Below, piece after piece: positions 43,281 to 44,411 of a DNA stretch of 64,000 nt. The position numbers were made by a program, and so were the translations under genes. The notes beneath the pieces were generated by a model. That model searched no databases. It was not told where the DNA came from and was given only the letters and a program-made list of their open reading frames with translations. This DNA is from Alphaproteobacteria bacterium (GTDB lineage Bacteria; Pseudomonadota; Alphaproteobacteria; SMXP01): contig JANQPV010000009.1 of NCBI GenBank assembly GCA_028285305.1, forward strand, positions 124,001-188,000, read 5' to 3'. The first letter of the stretch is position 1. The number at the start of each line of letters is the position of its first letter.

Positions 43281-43679
43281 TCAGCTGATCTCGATACGCC
43301 GTGGTTTGGCCTTTTCCGCTTTGGGAAGGCGGAGTGTCAAAACGCCGTCTTCCATTTCCGCGGAGATCTTACTTTGGTCGATTGCGTCGGGAAGCGAGAA
43401 CTTGCGATTGTAATGCCCGACATTATACTCCGTATACACTGGTTTCATTTCCGAATAGCTCGAAAGGTCGATACGGCCTTCGATCTGAAGGACATTTGCT
43501 TCGATCGAAATATCGATGTCGGTTTTTTCAACGCCTGCCATCTCCACAACCAGCGTCAATCCTTCTTCGGTTTCATAGATATCTGTGTAGGGAACAAAGT
43601 AGCGAGCCGGTATCGTCTTTTCTTCTTTTTCGAGGAGCTCCTGCTTTTCTTGAACTTCCATGGATTGGTTTTCCGTCAT
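43281..43679 (-). CDS. Small heat-shock protein (Hsp20), second of a pair
   Basis: 132 residues from the ATG at 43679, which has TAAGGAG upstream; a start at 43706 would lack one. Alpha-crystallin domain from about residue 25, with YTDIYETEEGLTLVVEMAGV and the ending GVLTLRLPKAEKAKPRRIEI (the G-V-L-T-L motif). N-terminal part is short and Glu/Gln-rich, unlike the aggregating N-arm of IbpA. Follows the other Hsp20 by 32 bp, so both share the upstream heat controls. ATP-independent holdase, probably hetero-oligomerising with its neighbour. Confidence 0.93.
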   Translation of the reverse strand: MTENQSMEVQEKQELLEKEEKTIPARYFVPYTDIYETEEGLTLVVEMAGVEKTDIDISIEANVLQIEGRIDLSSYSEMKPVYTEYNVGHYNRKFSLPDAIDQSKISAEMEDGVLTLRLPKAEKAKPRRIEIS

Positions 43680-43711: not shown

Positions 43712-44137
43712 CTAGTTAATCGCGATGGACTTGGGTTTATCGCGCTCTGCACGCGGCAGACGCAGGGTCAATACGCCGTTCTTATAATCGGCTTTCACCC
43801 CCTCGGCGTCGACTTCAAATGGGATCGCCAGAGTCCTGTCGAATTGGCCCGCGCTGCGTTCCCGGCGATGCACACTGGCGACTTCTCCGTACAAGATGCG
43901 TTTGGCACCAGCGATCCGCAGACGGTTGTTTTGCACTTCCACCGCGACGTCTTCGCGCCGGATGCCGGGGAGTTCGGTAACCACGACAAATTCGTCGCCA
44001 TCTACAAACACGTTTAGGGGCGGGTAGGCGCCGCCGCCGCTGGTGCTGCGATTGAGCCAATCGCTGCCGCGAAAGGAGTCTAATGCGTGCTGAAGCTGAT
44101 TCAGTCGTTCAAACGGGTCGGAGAAAAGTCTGGGCAT
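43712..44137 (-). CDS. Small heat-shock protein (Hsp20, IbpA-like), first of a pair
   Basis: 141 residues. The N-arm is typical of IbpA/HspA (PRLFSDPFERLNQLQHAL); the alpha-crystallin domain starts near 45 (YPPLNVFVDGDEFVVVTEL) and ends with GVLTLRLPRAERDKPKSIAI. Its AAGGATG ribosome site is base-paired to an upstream CATCCTT, and the promoter region carries a CIRCE operator (see those features). First gene of a two-gene hsp20 operon. Confidence 0.94.
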   Translation of the reverse strand: MPRLFSDPFERLNQLQHALDSFRGSDWLNRSTSGGGAYPPLNVFVDGDEFVVVTELPGIRREDVAVEVQNNRLRIAGAKRILYGEVASVHRRERSAGQFDRTLAIPFEVDAEGVKADYKNGVLTLRLPRAERDKPKSIAIN

Positions 44138-44141
44138 AATT

Positions 44142-44183
44142 CATCCTTCGGTATGTTTGAGAACAAGGCTCGATCAAAGGATG
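44142..44183 (-). promoter_or_regulatory. Ribosome-site hairpin (candidate RNA thermometer)
   Basis: On the mRNA strand CATCCTT (44183-44177) is a perfect complement of AAGGATG (44148-44142), which holds the Shine-Dalgarno site 4-11 bases before the hsp20 ATG. Two further pairs (U-G, G-C) extend the stem. An alternative pairing uses TTTGA with TCAAA inside. Hairpins that mask the ribosome site and melt with heat (ROSE, fourU) control Hsp20 in many proteobacteria; this one lacks obvious ROSE consensus. Confidence 0.6.
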
Positions 44184-44317
44184 TGGGTGCGGGCGCTTAG
44201 GGAAATCAGCGGTGCCAAGCAAGCCCGCCAGCGCCGCGCCCTGCGGTTGGTTGTAGGGAGTTAGGACTTCAGGCAGAGCCATCACCACACATCCTCGATC
44301 AAGCAACATGCGATAAG

Positions 44318-44344
44318 ATCGGCTGAGCCTAAAAATCAGCCGAT
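44318..44344 (-). promoter_or_regulatory. Leader stem-loop next to the CIRCE element
   Basis: ATCGGCTGA (44318-44326) and TCAGCCGAT (44336-44344) are perfect 9-bp arms around a nine-base loop. On the transcript it directly follows the CIRCE sequence. It may act with CIRCE in mRNA stability or transcription control. Confidence 0.4.
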
Positions 44345-44345
44345 T

Positions 44346-44372
44346 TTGGCACTCGATAACAGAGAGTGCCAA
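44346..44372 (-). promoter_or_regulatory. CIRCE operator (HrcA site)
   Basis: TTGGCACTC (44346-44354), nine bases, GAGTGCCAA (44364-44372): perfect arms matching the CIRCE consensus TTAGCACTC-N9-GAGTGCTAA except for one complementary base in each arm. HrcA binds such sites to repress chaperone genes at normal temperature. It sits just after the predicted start of the hsp20 transcript. CIRCE normally controls groESL; here it lies upstream of hsp20. Confidence 0.85.
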
Positions 44373-44383
44373 GGTGCCCTACG

Positions 44384-44411
44384 AGATGGTTTTTCTTGGT
44401 TATGAGTCAAG
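44384..44411 (-). promoter_or_regulatory. RpoH-like promoter of the hsp20 operon
   Basis: On the reverse strand CTTGACT (44411-44405) is followed 15 bp later by CCATCT (44389-44384), fitting the sigma-32 pattern CTTG...-CCATNT. The start point would be near 44376, right at the CIRCE element. CTTGAC also fits a housekeeping -35, but no matching -10 is seen. Confidence 0.45.

Follow-up and report, generated by a model that had tools for sequence, protein, structure and literature searches.

The heat-shock sigma factor RpoH, the repressor HrcA with its CIRCE operator, and the ROSE thermometers are usually described on separate genes, the classical ROSE element consisting of three to four hairpins in series. 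In the groESL operon of Caulobacter crescentus, HrcA/CIRCE control is combined with a sigma-32 promoter (PMC8119881), and ROSE elements downstream of sigma-32 promoters are common for small heat-shock genes in rhizobia and pseudomonads (PMC3989490; PMC3669281). The hallmark motif of ROSE-like thermometers is U(U/C)GCU (PMC3669281). In Lactobacillus acidophilus, CIRCE is reported ahead of hsp16, which encodes a small heat-shock protein (PMC3179173), and in Geobacter sulfurreducens it lies ahead of rpoH (PMC545781). Within the open-access literature searched, no report was found of CIRCE together with a ROSE-like element on one operon. Below, we describe a small heat-shock operon on which RpoH, HrcA/CIRCE and ROSE-like layers appear to coincide.

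The operon lies in a 64-kb stretch of DNA (here called the window) from the genome of an uncultured alphaproteobacterium (5.4 Mb, 95% complete). It comprises hsp20A (43712-44137, encoding a small heat-shock protein of 141 aa; PF00011, E 1.9e-21) and hsp20B (43281-43679; PF00011, E 6.8e-22), the second of which starts at ATG 43679 and has the Shine-Dalgarno (SD) sequence AAGGAG. The two genes are paired in all 16 of the orthologous loci examined. They are on the minus strand, as are all the elements named here for the operon leader, which is inferred to run for roughly 240 nt ahead of hsp20A. The original prediction for this leader, made from the sequence alone, described a promoter, CIRCE, a stem-loop and two complementary heptamers, all of which proved correct on re-reading. 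A plasmid search for the leader DNA in other replicons gave no match. Between the operon and a class II ribonucleotide reductase gene lies an ORF with a GIY-YIG domain (PF01541; 44536-44847, plus strand), which contains two exact 18-nt tandem copies of AATGGCACCCTCTATACA.

The promoter, at 44384-44411, is of the sigma-32 (RpoH) type. It reads CTTGACT-N15-CCATCT, with its boxes at 44411-44405 and 44389-44384; written as CTTGAC-N14-AACCATCT, it agrees at 10 of 13 defined positions with the sigma-32 consensus CTTGAA-N13-18-CNCCATAT quoted in PMC3669281. On the two strands of the window the pattern CTTGA[AC]-N12-17-NCCATNT occurs three times, whereas base-shuffled sequence would be expected to yield about 0.4 occurrences. 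A CTTGA-N15-17-CC-like promoter stands ahead of 12 of the 16 orthologous hsp20 operons, the window's counted in, and the genome has rpoH (TIGR02392, 375 bits, above the cut-off), the search for which had been suggested with the original prediction of this promoter. Because most orthologous operons have such a promoter and rpoH is present, the assignment, as predicted from sequence, is well supported and clearly above chance.

CIRCE, TTGGCACTC-N9-GAGTGCCAA, is found at 44346-44372 and would occupy about +5 to +31 of the transcript. Its 9-nt arms form a perfect palindrome and differ from the canonical TTAGCACTC-N9-GAGTGCTAA at two positions, one in each arm; the variant is common in the class. 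No second exact copy of this form exists in the 5.4 Mb of the genome, and a search there for the reversed pattern, as a control, gave no hits. The lack of an hrcA gene had been named in advance as one of two results that would refute the original prediction; the gene is present (PF01628, 200 bits, E 9.3e-59). With up to three mismatches allowed, the genome holds three CIRCE-like places, namely that of the window, a canonical copy with perfect arms ahead of groES, and a weaker, degenerate one just upstream of a gene of the DUF1178 family (C16:362729-362755; L002, 1501-1527), so that the proposed search for further sites yielded two. The operator in the window can be regarded as certain and far beyond chance, because the palindrome is perfect, hrcA is in the genome and the same site precedes the operon in two other families; it is predicted to bind HrcA.

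As for the weaker site, the notion that it is spurious was dropped. It is probably real, since the DUF1178 family (PF06676, function unknown) also has CIRCE in relatives, where the operator lies just upstream of the gene (loci L156, L158, L163 and L165); the DUF1178 gene is thus a recurrent putative target of HrcA.

Across the class, the form TTRGCACTC-N9-GAGTGCYAA was found in 124 of 385 genomes. At 30 sampled CIRCE loci, groES is the neighbour in 27, rpoH in one and hsp20 in none, which bears out the statement of the original prediction that CIRCE usually sits at groESL; its position at small heat-shock genes is unusual in the class. Closer to the window, the collection holds five genomes of the order, and both hsp20A and the window-type leader are absent from all four of the others. 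Orthologous hsp20A-hsp20B pairs are found instead in families f67, f57 and f61. Family f67 is taken to be Reyranellaceae or Reyranellaceae-like, because the leader sequence of its locus L134 is the same as that of L006, which belongs to a Reyranella MAG. In three orthologous loci CIRCE lies 118-124 nt ahead of hsp20A: L121 and L131 of f67, the former with TTGGCACTCGATGCCAGAGAGTGCCAA and the latter with one arm mismatch, and L122 of f57, where the site is degenerate on one side. The HrcA/CIRCE layer of the original prediction hence recurs ahead of orthologous operons. Judged by these sequences, the RpoH layer is general across the orthologues and CIRCE is common to part of the group, and neither is an accident of the window.

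In several f67 and f57 relatives CIRCE also lies about 100-135 nt ahead of the rpoH start (L155, L160, L162, L173, L169, L152 and L172, in genomes G189, G455, G388, G385, G458, G352 and G181). This position makes the gene for the heat-shock sigma factor a probable target of HrcA repression in these organisms. No CIRCE was found ahead of rpoH in the window genome (G000) or in G002 and G003.

Downstream of CIRCE comes a 9-bp stem-loop, ATCGGCTGA-N9-TCAGCCGAT (44318-44344), which had also been predicted. It is not likely to act as an intrinsic terminator within the leader, a reading that was ruled out because no T-run follows. The next hairpin, CAUGUUGCUU-GAUC-GAGGAUGUG (44288-44310), sets UUGCU opposite the SD sequence AGGA with a single G, at 44304, bulged out. 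When the Rfam ROSE model (RF00435) is applied to the leader alone, it aligns end to end with 44369-44279, such that hairpin I is the CIRCE palindrome, hairpin II the 9-bp stem-loop and hairpin III the hairpin with UUGCU. The score is 17.7 bits, with an E value of 2.2 over 4227 families and so about 5e-4 for a single family in the leader stretch. Because this score is far below the Rfam gathering score of 45, the element is called only ROSE-like and is not filed in RF00435. Its architecture is that of a ROSE-like thermometer in that two stable hairpins in series, CIRCE palindrome and stem-loop, precede a 3'-most hairpin in which the U(U/C)GCU motif pairs imperfectly with an SD sequence. It does not guard a heat-shock coding sequence directly; what it guards is the start of a leader ORF, and hsp20A follows 145 nt later. 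A second covariance model, built from Reyranella leaders only, ranks this hairpin second in the 64 kb (E 1.4); over the whole genome it gave no match at E 10 among the 150 of 800 candidates that were scored.

Folding in isolation separates the three hairpins. At 25, 37 and 45 °C, the predicted energies are -15.8, -13.1 and -11.4 kcal/mol for the 9-bp CIRCE RNA hairpin and -15.1, -12.6 and -10.9 kcal/mol for hairpin II. Those of the ROSE-like hairpin are -4.3, -1.7 and 0 kcal/mol, the last meaning unfolded, which puts its predicted melting between 37 and 45 °C. Taken together, motif, alignment and predicted melting give moderate, not decisive, grounds for placing a ROSE-like element in the hsp20 leader. 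Elsewhere in the same genome, a textbook example of a ROSE-type hairpin, UUUGUCGCUU-AUGA-AAGGACAAAG, stands ahead of the start codon of an ibpA-like gene (L090, C5:175099-178386); Rfam does not list this hairpin at E 1.

The leader ORF has 57 codons (44109-44282), starting at ATG 44282 or, alternatively, GTG 44285. Its SD sequence sits inside the ROSE-like hairpin, and its last 29 nt overlap the beginning of hsp20A. By codon usage its frame is the best of the six, with an intermediate coding score below that of typical genes. A similar arrangement is seen in eight Reyranella orthologues, in which, as in the window, ATGTTGCT...GTGATG stands ahead of a leader ORF. The Reyranella leaders are mostly longer and conserve ATGTTGCTC..GGAGGA.GTGATG ahead of an ORF of 60-68 codons; the corresponding stretch of the window is CGCATGTTGCTTGATCGAGGATGTGTGGTGATGG at 44312-44279, followed by the 57-codon ORF. 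Three of the Reyranella leader stretches are scored as ROSE by Rfam at 32-34 bits, also below the gathering score of 45. The Reyranella leader protein itself (60-68 aa; L125-L129 and L132-L134) is encoded immediately ahead of hsp20A with the ROSE-like element upstream, and varies along its length apart from a constant C-terminus, VSPPPxP[FW]PR[VI]FPxL, which in L127 is altered to HRPPPSLWPRVFPGL. The window's leader ORF was considered as a homologue of this protein and rejected, since it lacks the C-terminal motif and has no Pfam match; a Pfam scan of three of the Reyranella proteins likewise gave none.

The arrangement that we consider rather likely to be correct is one of layered control, in which an RpoH promoter and HrcA/CIRCE govern transcription and a ROSE-like thermometer couples the leader ORF to hsp20A. 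The hsp20A-hsp20B operon would be transcribed from the sigma-32-type promoter, with HrcA bound to CIRCE just after the start site and repressing it at normal temperature. On heating, active RpoH would rise, HrcA would be released, and the operon would be transcribed. The thermometer in its leader would begin with a stable hairpin formed by the CIRCE palindrome once transcribed, continue with a second stable hairpin and end in the weak hairpin in which UUGCU pairs with the SD sequence. In the cold, the latter would hide the start of the leader ORF, while a further hairpin would hide the SD sequence of hsp20A. With rising temperature the ROSE-like hairpin should melt first and let ribosomes start on the leader ORF; in passing the hsp20A SD hairpin and, owing to the 29-nt overlap, the start codon, these ribosomes would open hsp20A by translational coupling.

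The further hairpin involves the hsp20A SD region, CGAAGGATG (44142-44150). Here CATCCTT (44183-44177) and AAGGATG (44148-44142) are complementary, and an added U-G and G-C extend the match to nine contiguous pairs over the SD sequence. In the original prediction this hairpin was itself the hsp20A thermometer and the third heat layer, which would leave the leader ORF without a role. The local fold does hide the SD sequence from 25 to 45 °C, and its predicted accessibility is lower than in 98% of shuffles (as low in 2%). However, when the 72 nt upstream are shuffled by dinucleotides, 5.5% of the shuffles offer the SD sequence at least seven Watson-Crick pairs, and folding at 25, 37 and 45 °C gives the isolated hairpin -12.6, -8.9 and -6.8 kcal/mol, so that the prediction leaves it closed even at the highest of these temperatures. 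In the full-leader fold, moreover, CATCCTT has a more stable partner in the leader-ORF SD sequence. The hairpin is not conserved: occlusion of the hsp20A SD sequence is not consistent across the 16 orthologues (combined p 0.03, window included). Pairings visible by eye near the SD sequences of L121, L130 and L131 had hinted at compensatory changes, but covariation in CATCCTT/AAGGATG is not claimed, because these regions cannot be aligned and their SD occlusion is not below that of shuffles (fractions 0.53, 0.23 and 0.59). The complementarity thus exists, but the hairpin is only marginally better than chance by these predictions. Whereas the RpoH and HrcA/CIRCE layers of the original prediction stand, its translational layer is weak in the form described, and we think it quite unlikely that this hairpin is the thermometer; the ROSE-like hairpin, which shows the predicted thermometer profile, is the better candidate. 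It might also be argued that only the RpoH promoter and HrcA/CIRCE are real, the long leader being a remnant with no thermometer function and its hairpins, except CIRCE, incidental. CIRCE and the promoter are indeed the sole parts kept in the short-leader orthologues of other families, the scores of the ROSE-like and SD hairpins range from weak to marginal, and the leader ORF shows no homology to the Reyranella leader protein. Against this, the hairpin shows the ROSE motif with a bulged G, agrees in syntenic position with the ROSE-like elements of Reyranella and has a predicted melting range that suits a thermometer, and the leader contains long-range complementarity far beyond chance; we hold a purely transcriptional control to be unlikely.

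This complementarity is the basis for yet another reading. An anti-SD strand, CACCCACATCCTTTGATCGAGC (44168-44189), has two possible partners: the leader-ORF SD region at 44303-44283, CTTGATCGAGGATGTGTGGTG, in a helix of about 20 bp, and, via CATCCTTTG, the hsp20A SD sequence. The leader could accordingly be a two-state RNA switch, in which the anti-SD strand binds the hsp20A SD sequence, the ROSE-like hairpin then being closed and both SD sequences hidden, or binds that of the leader ORF, which shuts the leader ORF and frees the hsp20A SD sequence, the state being chosen by temperature or by translation; we consider this possible but somewhat unlikely. The long-range duplex is predicted at -34.7 kcal/mol, against -20.2 ± 2.4 kcal/mol for shuffled sequence, and none of 500 shuffles was as good, although part of the complementarity is automatic, because both SD sequences share AGGATG. 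Forcing the ROSE-like hairpin in the fold closes the hsp20A SD hairpin too, and the resulting state differs from the long-range-helix state by 3.3 kcal/mol at 37 °C, a gap no larger than the energy model's error. When the growing transcript is folded, the ROSE-like hairpin is the first SD structure to form, the long-range helix appearing only after the anti-SD strand has been made. On the other hand, the predicted states are nearly constant with temperature, the full-leader fold favouring the long-range helix and hiding the leader-ORF SD sequence throughout the range up to 50 °C, and no such helix was found in any of the eight Reyranella leaders (z -0.6 to +1.4). The helix may belong to a bistable switch, or it may simply be an alternative that folding kinetics avoid. 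The most elaborate proposal, in which the transcribed CIRCE doubles as ROSE hairpin I, the thermometer acts on the leader ORF and both SD sequences share one anti-SD strand in a two-state switch coupling the two starts, is tentative and, in our view, improbable.

If layered control is accepted as the working model, hsp20 joins an HrcA regulon in the Alphaproteobacteria of which groESL is nearly the sole target in the sampled loci. Operons in related families have the promoter, the promoter with CIRCE, the promoter with ROSE and leader ORF, or all of these, a series that is useful for asking how such layers are gained, lost and split between transcription and translation. With respect to described systems, the nearest transcriptional parallel is groESL of C. 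crescentus, which likewise places CIRCE near a sigma-32-responsive promoter with HrcA as the repressor (PMC8119881); the window differs in that small heat-shock genes, not groESL, are the target, and in its long, thermometer-like leader. The hsp16 gene of L. acidophilus resembles the window in that its 5' region has CIRCE and the gene is of the hsp20 family, but the organism is Gram-positive, the promoter is of the sigma-A type, and the accessible part of the report describes neither ROSE nor a leader ORF (PMC3179173). The CIRCE-rpoH arrangement of G. sulfurreducens resembles that of the Reyranellaceae-like and f57 relatives, where an HrcA operator also lies at a heat-shock regulatory gene, and differs from the window genome, which has no CIRCE at rpoH. 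The ROSE family (RF00435) offers the serial hairpins, a last hairpin whose U(U/C)GCU blocks the SD sequence, and the sigma-32 promoter; the window departs from it in its sub-threshold score, in guarding a leader ORF rather than hsp20, and in a hairpin I that coincides with CIRCE. The hsp20 leader is best regarded, then, not as a new kind of system but as a new combination of known controls.
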